From Stigmatella aurantiaca DW4/3-1 (lineage in GTDB: Bacteria; Myxococcota; Myxococcia; Myxococcales; Myxococcaceae): a stretch of 64,000 bases of DNA. Below, one piece after another: positions 2,967-12,152 of the stretch. Below the pieces are notes generated by a model. That model worked only from the letters and a program-made list of their open reading frames with translations. It did not search any database and was not told where the DNA came from. The translations under genes were made by a program, and so were the position numbers. How positions within the stretch are numbered: position 1 is the first letter of the stretch; each line of letters starts with the position of its first letter. Location of the stretch: the NCBI RefSeq assembly GCF_000165485.1, contig NC_014623.1, positions 8,822,893-8,886,892 on the forward strand, read 5' to 3'.

Positions 2967-4061
2967 TCAGGGGCGCCGCACCACCCGGTGCGTGCCCCGC
3001 AGCAGCTCCAGCCACCGCTCGCCCGCCTCCACCGAAGTGCCTTTCGGATCCACCAGCGCCAGCGCCAGGTGCGTCTCGGGGCGCACCGCGTCCAGCGAGG
3101 TCGGATCCAGCTCCAGCCCGCCGCCTCCGGGAAGGGCCACGCGCACCCACGCGTGCGGCCTCGCTGGCCCTCCCTCCACCGCCAGCAGGCCGTGCACCAG
3201 TGCCACCCGGTGCCCCCGCGCCTCCGCCTCCGCCGCGAAGCGCAGCGCATGGGCCAGGCACCCGCCCGCCTCGCCCGCGCCCCCCTCGCGCCAGTCCGCC
3301 GCGCCCGGCCCCTTCTCCGGAAAGGCCGCATGCACCCGCGCCGCCAGGGCCCGGGCCGCGGCCGCGTCCCACTCCGTCATCCCCGGCACCCGCCCAGGCA
3401 CCGCCCACGCGGGCTCGAAGGCCAGCACCCCGGAATTCCCTTGAACAGGCACCCCCTGGGAGAAGAGCTCCGGCGGAGGGCGCACCTTCTCCCCGGGAGC
3501 CGACCGCGTGAAGCGGGACTCGCCCACCTCCAAGACCTGGAGCCACCCTTGCGCGTCGTAGCGCGCCCGGAAAGGGGACCCCAGGAGCGTGCCTTCCGCC
3601 TCGGCCCCCCGCACGGCGGTGAGGCAGTGCGCGCCCTCCCGGCCCGTCAGCTCCTCCCGGCCCGTCACACACCCCGGGCGGGGAGGCCCCCGCCACAACC
3701 AGAGCGCCTGGGGCACGCTGTCCGTCCCCTCCACCGTTCCCTCCGCGCTCAGCGCCAGCGTCACCTCCTGCTTCCGCTCCCCCACCTGTCCCCCGCGCGT
3801 GTGCAGGTGGCGCGAGACATAGGTGAACTGCCCGGCGGACCGTCTCAACGTCACCCGCCCCACCGGAATCCCCCTCCACGAAAAGAGGTAACTCATGGAG
3901 TCCTCCAGCCCCTGGGGCATGGAGGACCCGCCCCCCCTCGGAGGGGCGGACGTAGCAGGTAGGGGCAGGAGTCCGGCGCAGAGCCAGCAGAGCAGGACGC
4001 CAAAGCGCGCAAGGAATTGAGGAACGGGGCGACAAGGCAGGCTAGCTTCACGGCTGCTCAT
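2967..4061 (-). CDS. Exported transglutaminase-like protein
   Basis: 364 residues. The N-terminus has a basic stretch and a hydrophobic segment ([24 protein letters not shown]), consistent with a signal peptide or membrane anchor. The C-terminal third carries a transglutaminase-like triad in order: Cys in [23 protein letters not shown], His in HAWVRVAL and Asp in [11 protein letters not shown]. Members of this superfamily are cysteine proteases/amidases or acyl transferases; a specific reaction cannot be read from the sequence. The middle region is a beta-rich domain of unknown type that begins [18 protein letters not shown]. The stop lies 9 bases from the end of astA (convergent). The ATG at 4061 overlaps the start codon of the divergent chemoreceptor gene; a longer start at 4196 would lie inside that gene. 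Confidence 0.72.
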
Positions 4062-7000
4062 GGGAGCCAAACGGTACCTCTTCGGCTTCGGACTTGTCGG
4101 GGGGCTTGTCTCCGCGCTCCTCCTCGGCTCGTTGTTGCAGACACTCGCCCACGTGGAGCTGGGCTCCCAGGGCTGGCTCTGGCTGCTGATCGCCACCCCC
4201 TTGCTCTATCTCCTGGGCGGGTGGCTGAGCTGGTTCAGCTGGGCGGGGTACCGCAGCCGGATCCGCCGGCGGGTCATCACCCGGCTGGCCGAGGGGGACC
4301 TGGCCATCACCACCCAGGCCGAGTTCGAGGGCCGCGAGGACGTGCGCCGCCTGCTGTCCTCCCTGCGCCGCGCCATCTCCCAGGTGCAGCGGGTGACGGC
4401 GAACATGCACCGCACCAGCACCAGCGTCTCCGAGCAGGCCCGGATGCTGCTGGAGGCCGCGCGGAGGCAGGGCCAGGCGGTGGACCACTCGCTGGAGGCG
4501 GTGTCCCGCATGGGCGAGACGCTCCAGGGGGCCGGCCAGCGGGTGGCGCAGATGGACAGCTTCGCCCACGAGACGACGAACGCGCTGGTGGAGATGACGG
4601 AGCGGCTCCAGCAGGTGGGCTTCGCCCTGTCCAGCCTGGATGAGTTCTCCCACCACACCAGCGAGCTGGTGCAGGCCATGAGCGAGCGGCTGGACAACAT
4701 CGCCGCCGCGGGAGACGAGCTGGCGCTGTTCGCCAACGAGGCCGAGAGCTTCGTGTCCGTGGTGGGCTCGGGCATCGAGGCGGTGCGCCGCCGCGCCAAC
4801 GAGACGAACGAGCTGGCCCAGGCCGTCACCGCCACCGCCCAGCGGGGCGAGGAGCTGGTCAACGACAGCGTCAAGGGCATGTACCGGGTGAAGGAGACGG
4901 TGCGCAAGGCCGCGGAGATCGTCGACTCGCTGGGCACGCGCTCGCGAGAGATTGGCCGCATCGTGGACGTCATCCAGGAGATCGCCGACCAGACGAACCT
5001 CCTGGCGCTCAACGCCGCCATCATCGCCGCCCAGGCGGGCGAGCACGGGCGGCCCTTCGGCGTGGTGGCCAACGAGATCCGCGGGCTGGCGGAGCGCTCC
5101 GCGCGCTCCACCCGGGAGATCTCCACCCTGGTGTCGGGCGTGCGCGCGGAGGTGGACACCACGGTGGTGCTGGTGAAGGAAGGCCGCGAGCAGGCCACCA
5201 CGGGCGCGCTGCTGGGAGACCGGGCGGCCACCGCCCTGGTGGAGATCCGCAACATCACCCAGCGCACCTTCGCGGCGGTGGAGTCCACGGTGGAGGAGAC
5301 CCGGCGCCTGGAGCAGCAGGGCTCCACGGTCATCGAGGCCAGCCAGCGCGTGGCCACCCGGGTGGACGATGTGACGAGGGCCGCCATCGAGCACGCCGGA
5401 CAGGCGCGGGAGCTGGTGCGCAAGACCGGGGAGATGGTGCGCCTGGCGCGCGATGCCTCGGAGAAGGTGGAGGGGCAAGCCCGCGCCGGCAACATGCTGT
5501 CCGAGTCGGTGGTGCGGCTGACGGCCGCCATCGATGGCATCCGCAAGGCACACGCGGTGCTCACCCGGGGCGAGGTCTCCATCCGTGACGAGGTCACCCG
5601 CGTCCGGGAGGATGCGCGGCGGGTCATCCGCAGCGGCGATGAGCTGAGCCGCACGGTGGATCAGCTTGGGCACGAAACGGTGAGTCTGGAATCAGAGGTG
5701 TTCCGCTTCCGCCTGCCCCAGCCCCACTCCGGGGGCACGCTGCGCGTGGGCATCCACCAGGCAGCGGCCTTGCGCGCGCGCCAGACGCTGGACCCGCTCT
5801 TCAGCGTGGAGAACCAGCTGGCGGAGCTGTGCGCCTGCGTCTTCTCCAACCTGCTCCGGCTCGAGGATGGCGTGCTCGTGCCGGACCTGGCCGAGCGCTG
5901 GGAGATGGACCCTTCGGCCCGCATCTTCTGCTTCTTCCTGCGCCGGGGCGTCACCTTCCACGATGGGACGGCGCTGACGGCCTACGACGTGAAGCGCCAC
6001 TTCGAGCGGCTGCTGGACCCCATGGTGCGCTCGCCGGACCGCTCGCTGCTGGAGGACATCGAAGGCGCTGGGCCCTTCACCGCCGGCACCACGCGCGACG
6101 TGAGCGGCCTGCGCGTCCTCAACGAAGGGTCGCTGGAGATCCGCCTGCGGGAGCCCAAGGCCTTCTTCCTCCACCTGTTGACCCTGACGCCCACGGCGGT
6201 GGCCCGGGTGGACTCGGATGGACGGCTGCTGGGAACGGGCCCCTACCGCCTGGAGCTCTTCGACACCGACCGCATCCTCATGGAGCGCAACCCCACCTAC
6301 TTCCGCCGCGATCTGCCGTGGCTGGACCGCCTCGAGTTCCGGCTGATGGACTCGCGGCAGGAGGCGTTGGATCAACTCCAGGGCGGCAAGGTGCAGTTCG
6401 TCTCCTTCCTCTACGCTCAGCAGGCCCAGTCCCCGGGCATGGAGGAGCTCCAGACGGCCGCCAGCTCCACCCCCTCCACCGCCTTCGTGGGCCTCAACCT
6501 GCGCGAGTCGCTCTATGACGACATGCGCGTGCGCAGGGCCATCCGCGCGGGGCTGGACATCCCCTCGCTGGTGGAGCAGTTCCACCCTGGCGCACGCGTG
6601 GCCCGGACGCTCACCCCGCCCGAGCTGCTCCAGGGCCTGGAGCCCGGGAGCATGCCGGGACCGGACGTGGCGCGGGCCGAGCAGCTCCTTCAGGAAGCCG
6701 GCGTGCGCACGGTGCCGCTGACGCTCTACTACCCCGCCGGCCGGGACTCCTCCGAGGAGGATGCGGTGCTGTTCCGGCCGCTCGTCGAGGCGGGACTGCT
6801 GGAGCTGCGCCACGTGGAGCTGCCCTCGCAGGACTACACCACCCGCCTGCGCGAAGGGCGCATCCCCGCCTTCCGCACCCTGTGGATCGCCGATTACCCG
6901 GACCCGGACAACTTCCTCTATTTCCTGCTGAACTCGAACGCGCAGAACATCTATCCGCTGGGCTACCGCAACCTGGCGCTGGACCGGCTGACCGCCGAGG

Positions 7001-7206
7001 CCCGCGTCTCCATTGATCCGGATCTGCGCCACCAGCTCTACCTGCGCGCCGAGGCGATCTGCGAACAGGACTGTCCCCTCATCCCCCTCTACCACGACCG
7101 CATCTACGCCGTGGCGAGCCCCGTGGTGCAGGGCCTGCGGCTGCACATGACGCCGCCCCAGGTGCGCTTCGAGGACCTGTGGATGGACTCCGACGCGGCC
7201 CTGTGA
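4060..7206 (+). CDS. Chemoreceptor-like protein fused to a cytoplasmic oligopeptide-binding-protein domain
   Basis: 1048 residues. Two membrane helices (about 7-29 and 38-60) are separated by only some eight residues, so there is no periplasmic sensor. Next come a short HAMP-like segment and a long methyl-accepting coiled coil with its hairpin tip at about 301-345 ([14 protein letters not shown], then [21 protein letters not shown]). From about residue 555 to the end the protein is an SBP_bac_5 (OppA/DppA-type) solute-binding domain: [67 protein letters not shown], and [10 protein letters not shown]...CPLIPLYH near the end. With two helices both ends face the cytoplasm, so the ligand domain is intracellular, as in the SgrR regulator. 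The tip departs from canonical NAAIEAARAGE: Glu is Ile and Arg is Gln, both trimer-contact positions in E. coli receptors. It presumably senses an internal peptide-like or small ligand and signals to a CheW/CheA array (inference). Confidence 0.88.
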
Positions 7207-9348: not shown

Positions 9349-9404
9349 GGGCCGGACTTAACCAGCTTCGGGCAAGCCCCTGAAGGGGAAGCCGTCTCTG
9401 GGTG

Positions 9405-10019
9405 TCAGGTAGCTGGGGTGCGCCGCCGCGCCAGGGTCCGGACGACCACGGCCAGCACCCCGATCACGACCAGAATCACCACGGCCATCTGGTAGCGCGC
9501 CATCAACCCTTCCAGGCGCTCCAGGTTTCCCCCCACCGCCCGGCCCACCGAGAGCACCAGCGCATTGTGGGCCATCGCGGAGATCGTGCCCAGCAGCAAC
9601 GCATTGCGCCGGGGCATGCGGGCTGCCCCCGCGGCGATGAAGATGATCCCTCGAATTCCAGGCAAAAAGCGGTTAACGAGCAGCAGCCAGGGCCCACCGC
9701 GCCTCATCCTCGCCTGGACTTCCGCCAACCGGGCATGCGTCAGGCCAAAAAAGCTCGTGTCTGGCTTTGCCTCGAAGCGCCGTGCTACCCACGTCCCAAA
9801 CCAGTAATTGATGGCCGCGCCCGCGACACTGCCCGCCGTCACAACCACGAAAACAAGAGGCCAGGGATGGTCTCCCCGTACCGCATACACCCCCCCCAGC
9901 AGGATGATGGTATCCCCGGGGAAGGGCGGCACCAGGTACTCCAACATGGCCGCCAGGCCCAGGATGAGCACCCCCGCCAGCCCCAGCGCCATGATGAGGT
10001 TGTCGAGGAACTCCACCAT
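9405..10019 (-). CDS. DedA/VTT-domain inner-membrane protein
   Basis: 204 residues, the usual DedA length, with several membrane helices. The family signature E-x-x-x-P-x-P-G-D is present as EYLVPPFPGDTIILLGG (residues about 27-43), and the second conserved half FLPGIRGIIFIAAGAARM near residue 120 carries the F-x-P-G-x-R motif. DedA-family proteins are lipid transporters/scramblases that help carrier-lipid recycling and maintain proton-motive force. A basic C-terminal tail (RTLARRRTPAT) follows the last helix. The gene diverges from the kinase-receiver-cyclase gene 93 bases away and could be co-transcribed with the lipoprotein downstream. The individual substrate is not inferable. Confidence 0.88.
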   Translation of the reverse strand: MVEFLDNLIMALGLAGVLILGLAAMLEYLVPPFPGDTIILLGGVYAVRGDHPWPLVFVVVTAGSVAGAAINYWFGTWVARRFEAKPDTSFFGLTHARLAEVQARMRRGGPWLLLVNRFLPGIRGIIFIAAGAARMPRRNALLLGTISAMAHNALVLSVGRAVGGNLERLEGLMARYQMAVVILVVIGVLAVVVRTLARRRTPAT

Positions 10020-10112
10020 CCACCCACCTGCCTTTCAGAGCCTTCCGCTTCATCTGGTTCCCTGCCAGGCCCCTTGCAACCCTGTTTGGCGCATACCACG
10101 CCGCGCCGTAAG

Positions 10113-12152
10113 ATGGAGGACATCCACGAGGTGACTTCCCGTCCCCCGAGAGCAGAGCGCATGACCGAACGCCCCATCGGCGGCAGGTACATTCTGGAGC
10201 GAAGAATTGCCGGGGGAGGGATGGGCGCCATCTGGATGGCGCTCGACAGCCAACTCCAACGGCACGTGGCGCTCAAGCAAATGGCCTCCCATCGCGTCTC
10301 CTGCGCCGAGGACCGGCAACGGTTCGCCCGGGAGGCAAAAGCCATCGCGCGCCTCCACCACCCCCACGTGGTTCAGGTTCACGATTACGGGGTCGATGAG
10401 GATGTGCCCTACATCGTGATGGAGCTGCTCGAGGGCGAGGATCTCGAAGCGCTGCTGGGCCGGCGGCAGCGGCTCACCCCCGCCGCGGTGACGCCCCTGC
10501 TGCTTCAGGCGGCGCGGGCGCTCGACGCGGCCCACGCGGCCGGCATCGTCCACCGGGACCTCAAGCCCGCCAACCTCTTCCTGGCCCACGTGGACGGCGA
10601 GGAGATGCTCAAGGTGCTCGACTTCGGGCTGGCCCTGCTGAACGAGGGCGCCGAGCCCACGCCTCAGGGCAAGGAGCTGGCGGGAACACCCCGCTACATG
10701 AGCCCCGAGCAGATGCGGGGCATGACCCGGCTGGACCACCGCAGCGATCTCTGGTCGCTCGGCATCGTGCTCTACCGGAGCCTCACCGGTCAGTTCCCCT
10801 TCTCCGTGGATGCCCTGGAGGCCCTGCGCGACGGCACCTCCCCGCCCAGCCTGATGCCCGTCTCCCAGGTGGCGCCCGAGCTGGGCAAGGAGGCGGACGG
10901 CTTCTTCGCGCGCGCGCTCGCCCCGGACCCGTCCCAGCGCTTCGCCTCCGCCCAGGAGATGGCGGTGGCGTTCTCCGCGCTGGTGCTGGCGGGCCGCCCG
11001 ACCCGGCCCGCGAAGATCCTGATCGTGGACGACGAGCCCGACACGATCCTGGTGATGCAGCAGCGCTTCCGCAAACAGATCGAATCCGCGGCCTACGAGC
11101 TGATCTTCGCCACCAACGGAGAGGAGGCCCTCGAGAAGCTGCGGCAGCATCCGGACACGGACGTCGTCCTCACGGACCTCAACATGCCGAAGATGGACGG
11201 GCTGTCGTTCCTGGCCCGGGTGGGTGAGGTGAACTCCCTGGCCAAGGTCATCATCGTCTCGGCCTACAGCGACATGAGCAACATCCGGACGGCGATGAAC
11301 CGCGGGGCCTTCGACTTCCTGGTGAAGCCCGTGAGCTTCCAGGACCTGAAGTCCACGCTGGAGAAGACGCTCAAGCACGTGGGCGAACTGCGCCGGATGC
11401 TGCGCTCCACCGAGGAGAATGATCTGCTGCGGATGTTCGTGCACGGCGGCGTCGTGGAGCGGGTGCTCTCGGCGGTCCGCACGCCGCTGGGGGTGGCCGG
11501 AGAGCGCGTGGACGCCACCGTGGTGTTCGTCGACGTGAAGAACTTCCTGCCCGTCACCCGCAGCGAGCTGCCCGACGCGGCCATCCGGCGGCTGAACGCC
11601 AACTTCGAGGTCATCGTCTCCGAGCTGGTCTCCTCGGGGGGCGTGGTGGACAAGTTCGTGGGGGACGCGGTGATGGCCGTGTTCCGGGGCCAGGGGCACC
11701 TGGGCCGGGCCGCCGAGGCCTGCCTCCAGACGCGGCAGCGGCTGAGCGACCTGGCCTTCCGCAGCGGCGAGCACTCCGCCTACACGCATGGGGTGAGCAT
11801 GGGGCTGGCCTCGGGCGAACTCCTCTCCGGAAGCATCGGGGCCAAGACGATGGGCCGCCTGGATGCCACGGTGCTCGGAGATGTGGTGAACACGGCGGCC
11901 TGGCTCGCCTCCGTCGCGGGCAAGGATCAGCTCCTCATCCCAGAGGCACTCCGGGAGCGGCTGGAGTCCCGCTTCGAGTGTCAGGCGGTGGGCCCCCACC
12001 TGCTTCCTGGCCAGAAGACGCCCGCGCCCCTCTACAACATCGTGAACCGGAAGGAGCCCGTGGTCTCGACCTCGGATCCCACGGCTTCAACCCCCCCGCG
12101 CAAGGAGAAAGACGATCCCCGCATGGTCGCGCTCAACGAAGGAAGGGACTAG
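10113..12152 (+). CDS. Ser/Thr protein kinase - receiver - class III cyclase-like fusion
   Basis: 679 residues, soluble, with three modules. (1) A Hanks-type kinase, about 24-290, with glycine loop AGGGMG, Lys55 in HVALK, catalytic HRDLKPAN, DFGLAL and GTPRYMSPEQ. (2) A CheY-like receiver, about 300-420, with IVDDEPD, phospho-acceptor Asp355 in VLTDLNMP and Lys405 in FLVKP. (3) A class III nucleotide cyclase homology domain, about 465-640. The metal aspartates are present (Asp474 in FVDVKNF, Asp518 in KFVGDAVMAVF), as are GD and Asn593. The position of the transition-state Arg is Trp597 (NTAAWL instead of NxAARL), so cyclase activity is doubtful. No strong ribosome site supports this ATG; in-frame alternatives are GTG 10131 (GGAGG 11 bases upstream) and ATG 10161. 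It lies two bases upstream of the FHA-GAF-cyclase gene, so the two are surely co-transcribed. Confidence 0.9.
   Translation: MEDIHEVTSRPPRAERMTERPIGGRYILERRIAGGGMGAIWMALDSQLQRHVALKQMASHRVSCAEDRQRFAREAKAIARLHHPHVVQVHDYGVDEDVPYIVMELLEGEDLEALLGRRQRLTPAAVTPLLLQAARALDAAHAAGIVHRDLKPANLFLAHVDGEEMLKVLDFGLALLNEGAEPTPQGKELAGTPRYMSPEQMRGMTRLDHRSDLWSLGIVLYRSLTGQFPFSVDALEALRDGTSPPSLMPVSQVAPELGKEADGFFARALAPDPSQRFASAQEMAVAFSALVLAGRPTRPAKILIVDDEPDTILVMQQRFRKQIESAAYELIFATNGEEALEKLRQHPDTDVVLTDLNMPKMDGLSFLARVGEVNSLAKVIIVSAYSDMSNIRTAMNRGAFDFLVKPVSFQDLKSTLEKTLKHVGELRRMLRSTEENDLLRMFVHGGVVERVLSAVRTPLGVAGERVDATVVFVDVKNFLPVTRSELPDAAIRRLNANFEVIVSELVSSGGVVDKFVGDAVMAVFRGQGHLGRAAEACLQTRQRLSDLAFRSGEHSAYTHGVSMGLASGELLSGSIGAKTMGRLDATVLGDVVNTAAWLASVAGKDQLLIPEALRERLESRFECQAVGPHLLPGQKTPAPLYNIVNRKEPVVSTSDPTASTPPRKEKDDPRMVALNEGRD

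Follow-up and report, generated by a model that had tools for sequence, protein, structure and literature searches.

A chemoreceptor of Stigmatella aurantiaca with an OppA-like solute-binding domain fused behind its signaling coil, conserved in Myxococcaceae and found in Acidobacteriota

In a 64,000-nucleotide stretch of the soil predator Stigmatella aurantiaca DW4/3-1 (contig NC_014623.1, positions 8,822,893 to 8,886,892; the whole stretch is called the window, and positions below are counted from its first letter), we analyzed an mcpK-type gene in which a methyl-accepting chemotaxis protein (MCP) is fused to a solute-binding protein (SBP) of the SBP_bac_5 family. The reading that we favor, and consider rather probable, is that the product is a chemoreceptor of the 64H length class, orphan and anchored in the membrane, with a cytosolic ligand-binding domain (LBD) of the OppA/DppA type beyond the natural C-terminal end of its MCP coil. 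Such a receptor probably reports on the cell’s own supply of peptides or amino acids.

The gene occupies positions 4060..7206 on the plus strand, with an ATG start and 1048 amino acids plus a stop codon, as delimited by the open reading frame (ORF), the Pfam matches and the full-length orthologues. Two helices with a very short loop are encoded at 4066..4290, the second continuing past the membrane as a HAMP-like segment, as judged from an AlphaFold2 (AF2) model, hydropathy and charge. No HAMP domain was called by Pfam in the fusion protein at E 0.01, and the model placed a helix, a short connector and a helix with a GDL motif after the membrane helices. The MCP hairpin coil, of 64H length, spans residues ~103-552 (4366..5715), with MCPsignal (PF00015) at residues 251-438 (E 1.3e-34, 120 bits vs a cut-off of 34.6), and its tip lies at residues 309-356 (4984..5127) by sequence alignment. 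The OppA-like SBP_bac_5 domain takes up residues 558-1048 (5731..7203). A failure of this C-terminal half to match its family was looked for; instead PF00496 matched at residues 606-961 (E 4.1e-57, 194.4 bits vs a cut-off of 32.4). The order of the Pfam domains, MCP signaling and then SBP_bac_5, fits by position an MCP with a C-terminal LBD. Searched by sequence, the best PDB chain was a peptide-transporter SBP (3.3e-38 over residues 575-1032), OppA matched at 1.4e-28, and MCP structures matched the coil part. Profile searches also matched DUF948 and SMC, which were set aside as coiled-coil resemblance. The initial annotation, made from the letters alone, had described an MCP coil followed by about 490 residues of SBP_bac_5 to the C-terminus with a boundary near residue 555, and this description held; the junction was mapped to residues 550-561 (5707..5742), where the MCP arm ends and a mature SBP apparently starts, by alignment A1, tip-to-junction counts and the predicted local distance difference test (pLDDT) of the model. 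At window positions 4059-4062, the fusion gene's ATG overlaps, in the letters CATG, with what may be the ATG of a divergent transglutaminase-like gene, and either start may really lie elsewhere.

The AF2 model was built on an alignment of 29 fused sequences and reached a mean pLDDT of 70 and a predicted template modeling score of 0.55. In the SBP half, the 10-residue pLDDT means were mostly 74-93, with dips to 66-68 at residues 851-870 and to 57 at 941-950, and the junction residues 551-560 scored 84. Foldseek matched residues ~558-1045 of the model to 8upi (5.4e-32) and to OppA 1ola (1.8e-30), and VIA aligned the SBP half with OppA 1ola at Z 35.5 over 487 residues and 3.1 A. By sequence and by predicted fold, the C-terminal half is a full SBP_bac_5 protein. 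It lacks the marks of an exported transport SBP, being internal and without a preceding signal peptide, and no ABC transporter gene was found among the typed neighbors of the fusion gene. Both halves are under purifying selection: the ratio of nonsynonymous to synonymous substitution rates (dN/dS) against the nearest relative, L011, was 0.05 for the MCP half and 0.10 for the SBP half, and it stayed below 0.5 for both halves in all seven comparisons, of which those with L014 and L055 gave identical values and may concern one gene.

The two membrane helices with almost no loop between them, another claim of the initial annotation, were recovered by AF2 at residues 3-29 and 36-77; in the hydropathy scan, only the first passed in the window protein, and both passed in several orthologues. 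In 17/17 proteins from the Myxococcaceae side of alignment A1, the N-terminus carried a net charge of +2, the loop one between -1 and +1, and the stretch following the second helix one of +3 to +8, a positive-inside pattern which indicated that both ends lie inside. At the hydropathy threshold used, the window protein showed no membrane segment in its coil or beyond it. Five relatives (L059, L063, L073, L092 and L199; the genes L059 and L092 recur as L194 and L195) had no N-terminal membrane helix by hydropathy, so that their SBP can hardly be outside. The SBP tail thus very probably lies in the cytosol, as these sequence criteria suggest. Together with the SBP fold, the cytosolic side makes the sensing of an internal ligand the best reading. 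The proposal that the receptor reads such a ligand from the end opposite to the usual one therefore stood as far as the placement of the tail is concerned, and the ligand itself is considered below.

At the hairpin tip, Asn318, Ile322, Gln325 and Glu328 occupy what we take to be Tsr positions 381, 385, 388 and 391; the equivalents of Asn381 and Glu391 were kept, and Glu385 and Arg388 were replaced by Ile and Gln, as had been noticed from the sequence. The idea that this tip hints at a non-standard array for this receptor did not survive. The Ile/Gln tip occurred in 2/22 MCPs of the genome, namely the fusion protein and the unfused 64H paralogue L118, and Ile at the Tsr 385 position was present in all 12 unfused 64H receptors examined. 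The odd tip as the sign of a unique array was dropped on these grounds, and the tip looks like a mark of the length class.

Arm length provided the class. From tip Asn318 to Phe550, the fusion protein has 232 residues, the same distance as in L118, and from the tip Asn to the coil end at Leu552 it has 234, equal to the distance from the tip to the end of the ORF in L118. By the tip-Asn-to-ORF-end yardstick, which counts any tail and is rough for other receptors, 13 of the 22 MCPs of the genome measured 150-155 residues, which fits 40H, and the DifA-like receptor L119 measured 166, about 44H. The fusion protein fits, by its arm length, a receptor of the 64H class, which has about 32 heptads per arm and is one of the twelve published MCP classes (PMC6943060). 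Because of that length, association with a 64H receptor of the McpJ type rather than with DifA is predicted. For methylation sites, a relaxed consensus was matched once, at residue 414, and the strict consensus was absent from the coil. As for genomic partners, whose count the initial annotation had recommended, the genome held 26 places with a CheW domain, none of them close to the fusion gene, and the window gene is an orphan receptor gene. CheW was found in 12/12 of the Acidobacteriota-side genomes checked. In four Acidobacteriota-side genomes (L226, L227, L228 and L229), an unfused 64H MCP gene directly adjoins a CheW gene, and these neighbors possibly form a dedicated 64H pair.

The geometry of the junction pointed to the origin of the fusion. 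Paralogue L118 ends in ...EVRRFRV, and the fused protein runs on from the same place into the SBP. The tip-to-junction distance was 232 residues in 20/20 parsed fused proteins (23 loci given, 3 unparsed) and also in the 24/24 fused rows of the coil alignment (25 given, L054 unparsed). That alignment, with 38 of 39 rows used (L054 again unparsed), had 448 columns and no internal gaps; its rows were cut at fixed tip distances and are of equal length by construction, so the results are the gaplessness and the matching junction letters, and L222 and L230 are not of 64H length. In the SBP tree, 25 fused domains grouped together as a single clade, apart from 34 free domains and 2 in other fusions, with a Shimodaira-Hasegawa-like approximate likelihood ratio test (SH-aLRT) value of 99. 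This tree used 61 of 87 extracted rows, 26 having been taken out manually, L111 because it was truncated and the others as probable near-copies judged by eye. In the tree of the MCP part, the fused proteins lay on one side of a branch with a weaker SH-aLRT of 86. SH-aLRT was the sole support computed, the long branches L180 and L181 meet, and because the free SBPs were selected by likeness to the fusion protein, a closer free relative may exist. The single SBP clade and the single tip-to-junction length, both derived from the sequences, suggest that the SBP was fused once, long ago, behind the natural end of the MCP.

The same architecture, which had been proposed as a search target across Myxococcota, was widespread. 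At E <= 1e-60, 88 of 96 Myxococcaceae genomes matched the fusion protein, 82 of them in one frame and essentially full length, and five (G005, G008, G013, G088 and G095) in partial pieces crossing the junction, so that both halves stood in one frame in 87 of the 88. The initial annotation had anticipated that homologues split near residue 555 would speak against a true fusion; only G057 showed two frames, broken at residue 558, where a base-level reading showed that ~11 bases are absent from the junction, next to a GC-rich inverted repeat. This loss of bases is either real or an assembly slip. A stop within the match in G009, G050, G089 and G090 was gone when the alignment was made a few codons shorter and was taken as the terminal stop; one stop was noted too in four of the 30 full-length Acidobacteriota-side genomes described next (G191, G211, G225 and G413). 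In the rest of Myxococcota, the full fusion was present in at least 3 of 94 genomes (G150, G152 and G160), and G161 had both halves on different contigs. On the Acidobacteriota side, a phylum-level sample was drawn around G192, a Blastocatellia genome, and 33 of its 396 genomes matched at E <= 1e-140, 30 of them essentially full length; the named carriers were Acidobacteria, Blastocatellia, Chloracidobacterium, Thermoanaerobaculum and Candidatus Aminicenantes. Ten of those 33 were already among the relatives from the first locus search, which took the best 80 of 539 and in which 29 of 78 loci were fused. The E <= 1e-140 search found the fusion in 0/345 genomes of the phylum of the deltaproteobacterial genome G588, 0/301 of that of the Chloroflexota genome G591 and 0/290 of that of the Oligoflexia genome G590; these phylum samples were drawn from larger groups at a strict threshold, and rare or divergent members may be missed.

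The genes around the fusion offered a lead on what is sensed. Thirteen Myxococcaceae loci had 3.5 kb or more of upstream sequence, and 12 of them carried astA there, a gene of the arginine N-succinyltransferase family by Pfam on the window copy. For L051 and L053, the match to astA stopped ~40-55 bases short of the fusion gene, with both genes on the same strand. On the Acidobacteriota side, ACT-domain and DUF711 genes lay downstream in 8 of 22 distinct loci, and alanine dehydrogenase and acetyl-CoA hydrolase/transferase genes upstream in 4 of the 22; Pfam typing was done on the L061 and L099 copies, and the remainder were assigned by similarity. As a lead rather than a test, the neighbors in three lineages hint at amino-acid or peptide metabolism. 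Farther along the window, a single plus-strand ORF at 9402-12152, whose true start probably lies well inside, joins protein kinase, response-regulator receiver and guanylate/adenylate cyclase domains by Pfam.

The pocket was examined at residues 939-954 (6874..6921), where the phmmer alignment set OppA Arg413 against Arg939 and OppA Asp419 against Asp945. Asp419 is presumably the residue that holds the peptide amino group in OppA, with Asp945 its aligned equivalent. The Asp945 equivalent was present in 32/32 fused SBP domains, and a peptide pocket in the fused SBP is plausible from this alignment. Members of SBP_bac_5 have predicted ligands that are almost exclusively di-, tri- and oligopeptides (PMC9602780).

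Several points weigh against the favored reading. The Asp945 equivalent was also present in 52 of 53 free SBPs, which makes it a mark of the family rather than of peptides; Arg939, the Arg413 equivalent, was retained in 13/32 fused domains and gone in 19/32; and the model dropped to its pLDDT of 57 exactly at the pocket stretch 941-950. VIA matched the SBP half to opine-, glutathione-, sialic-acid- and nickel-binding SBPs at Z 32.7-36.4, on par with peptide binders, so the fold tells the family and leaves the ligand undecided. In 10 of the 22 Acidobacteriota-side loci, neither neighbor set was present, 6 of these having a flank of only ~1-1.5 kb. The modeled coil fell below pLDDT 50 at residues 150-239 and 416-508, and the geometry of the receptor is for that reason only conditional. 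Degenerate hairpin tips were seen in a sub-clade of the fusion (L057, L099, L103 and L202; e.g., NATIFSHNIDERPQD in L057), where the coupling to CheA may be altered or lost. The published account of the Myxococcus xanthus protein McpK places it in class 44H with DifA, contrary to our count of 64H, and Table 1 of that account lists three TMHMM segments, a count that at face value would place the tail outside (PMC3945109). Finally, the fusion, its conservation, the predicted fold, the membrane side by sequence criteria, the arm length and the single SBP clade were computed directly, and we infer the ligand, the effect on CheA and the partner.

These points feed the alternatives to different degrees. 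A cytosolic sensor of a non-peptide ligand, such as a metal chelate, an opine- or sugar-like compound or a nucleotide, is possible though doubtful. It would account for the equal match of the model to non-peptide binders and for the many members in which the Arg413 equivalent is gone; against it, the nearest PDB entries by sequence are peptide binders, and the neighbors in three lineages lead toward amino-acid metabolism. Unlikely in our view is an SBP that serves as a docking or structural module without a ligand, stabilizing the receptor or binding a protein partner near the membrane. Phe702 (6163-6165) and Pro1033 (7156-7158) were found in 32/32 fused SBP domains but in only 6/53 and 5/53 free ones, respectively, and are possible sites of contact with the coil; residues fixed in the fused and rare in the free domains are what a new interface would leave. 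The loss of the Arg413 equivalent in 19 fused domains, a dN/dS of the SBP half slightly above that of the coil in 6/7 comparisons and the fact that no ligand is known would also suit a docking role. Such a role sits poorly with a whole clamshell kept at full length in both phyla and with a family motif whose Asp945 is invariant in the fused domains.

A tail made periplasmic by a third membrane segment, and thus a tethered ordinary SBP, is highly improbable. The three segments listed for McpK and a hydrophobic window inside the coil past the tip in ~10 scanned orthologues (e.g., L030 ORF residues 366-384) would favor it, and the latter may be the third TMHMM segment of McpK. That region of the coil, however, aligns gap-free with unfused and soluble receptors, such a segment was absent from the window protein at the hydropathy threshold used, relatives lacking an N-terminal membrane helix exist, and no signal peptide precedes the SBP. 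We rejected the periplasmic tail on the positive-inside charge, the lack of a later membrane helix and those relatives. That sequencing or assembly joined two genes is next to impossible, since the one broken copy in G057 stands against frames that are continuous in 87/88 Myxococcaceae genomes, at least 3/94 other Myxococcota and 30/396 Acidobacteriota-side genomes, and the artefact was rejected.

Under the favored reading of a cytosolic sensor behind a 64H coil, signaling could proceed from the C-terminal side. With both arms of 64H length, the C-terminal arm should lead back to the rod's HAMP/membrane end, where the SBP would sit, one per subunit. Ligand capture would close the SBP clamshell, and the closed SBP would move the C-terminal arm through the short junction of fixed length, which in turn would change the control of CheA at the tip. 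The most likely ligand would be a cytosolic peptide or amino-acid derivative, as the fold, Asp945 and the neighbors suggest. Judging from arm length and tip, the receptor would likely assemble with its McpJ-type unfused 64H paralogue rather than with the 40H or the 44H DifA-like receptors. A broader proposal, which we put forward tentatively and hold somewhat short of probable, is that one old fusion, spread over Myxococcota and Acidobacteriota, founded a group of receptors that read the internal peptide or amino-acid pool with an inward-turned SBP and drive the coil from its C-terminal arm via a length-locked junction, in a 64H array apart from the 40H array.

If these proposals are true, a widespread receptor family senses internal metabolites with a domain whose main known role is that of an extracellular transport protein, and the coil receives the signal at the end that textbook receptors do not use. 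The coil would then be drivable from either arm, and the receptor system itself would weigh nutrient state against external signals. In myxobacteria, starvation starts multicellular development, and an internal peptide or amino-acid receptor would there be a direct input to the decision to enter development. The isolated SBP domain is predicted to be cytosolic and separable, which makes the question of the ligand directly testable.

The Myxococcus xanthus counterpart of the fusion protein is almost surely McpK. The gene mostly occurs in one copy per genome, and named Myxococcus genomes carry full-length orthologues of 1047-1048 amino acids with 68-69% identity. McpK (MXAN_6456) was listed in 2014 in Table 1 of PMC3945109 as an orphan MCP of 1048 amino acids with an MCP domain at 246-463 and a 'bacterial extracellular solute-binding proteins domain', so that the architecture is already tabulated there; the match was made by this length and domain list, not by the MXAN_6456 sequence. 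The published protein differs in its class (44H), its link to DifA and its three transmembrane segments, and the fusion protein here has 64H arms, two transmembrane helices and a cytosolic tail by our criteria. Ten green fluorescent protein fusions gave clear foci in PMC3945109, and that of McpK was not one of them; section 7 names the mcpK mutant neither as motility-defective nor as defect-free. By elimination from these two lists, its deletion may alter development, which backs a developmental input only indirectly. In the openly readable literature searched, this was the only paper found concerning the protein, and no discussion was found of a cytosolic SBP in McpK, the cross-phylum fusion, the 64H class or the neighbors.

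Other known systems place the fusion protein between receptors and transport proteins. L118 shares with it ungapped coil homology, the 232-residue arm and the Ile/Gln tip, but L118 has no SBP after its final residues and has a longer N-terminal part; it appears to be of the McpJ type, a name taken from the length and HAMP place given in Table 1 of PMC3945109. Among MCPs with a sensor domain after the signaling coil, the CZB type carries a small domain, in contrast to the whole two-lobed SBP of ~490 residues found here. That receptors sense through N-terminal domains, as the initial annotation had assumed, holds as a rule, but MCPs with a C-terminal LBD, CZB and others, are already known as a recognized, poorly characterized subfamily with at least 17 domain types (PMC7390727). 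The periplasmic proteins OppA, DppA and MppA share with the fused SBP the predicted fold, the motif W-x-A-D-Y-P-D-P and the length; unlike them, the fused domain has no signal peptide, is joined to an MCP and is predicted to be cytosolic. Two Chloroflexota ORFs, L112:277-4218 with SBP_bac_5 C-terminal to BTAD-AAA-TPR and L116:5346-9434 with SBP_bac_5 C-terminal to Ser/Thr kinase-AAA-TPR, had no clear membrane segment by hydropathy and appear to be further intracellular uses of the family. SgrR, a transcription factor composed of a helix-turn-helix (HTH) domain and SBP_bac_5, likewise uses this domain inside the cell. The SgrR NCBIfam model matched the fusion protein at E 1.5e-5 and 23.8 bits, far under its cut-off of 476, and with an MCP rather than an HTH at the N-terminus, membership in SgrR was set aside. 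Both proteins employ SBP_bac_5 intracellularly; the output of SgrR is DNA binding, whereas that proposed for the fusion protein is the control of CheA.

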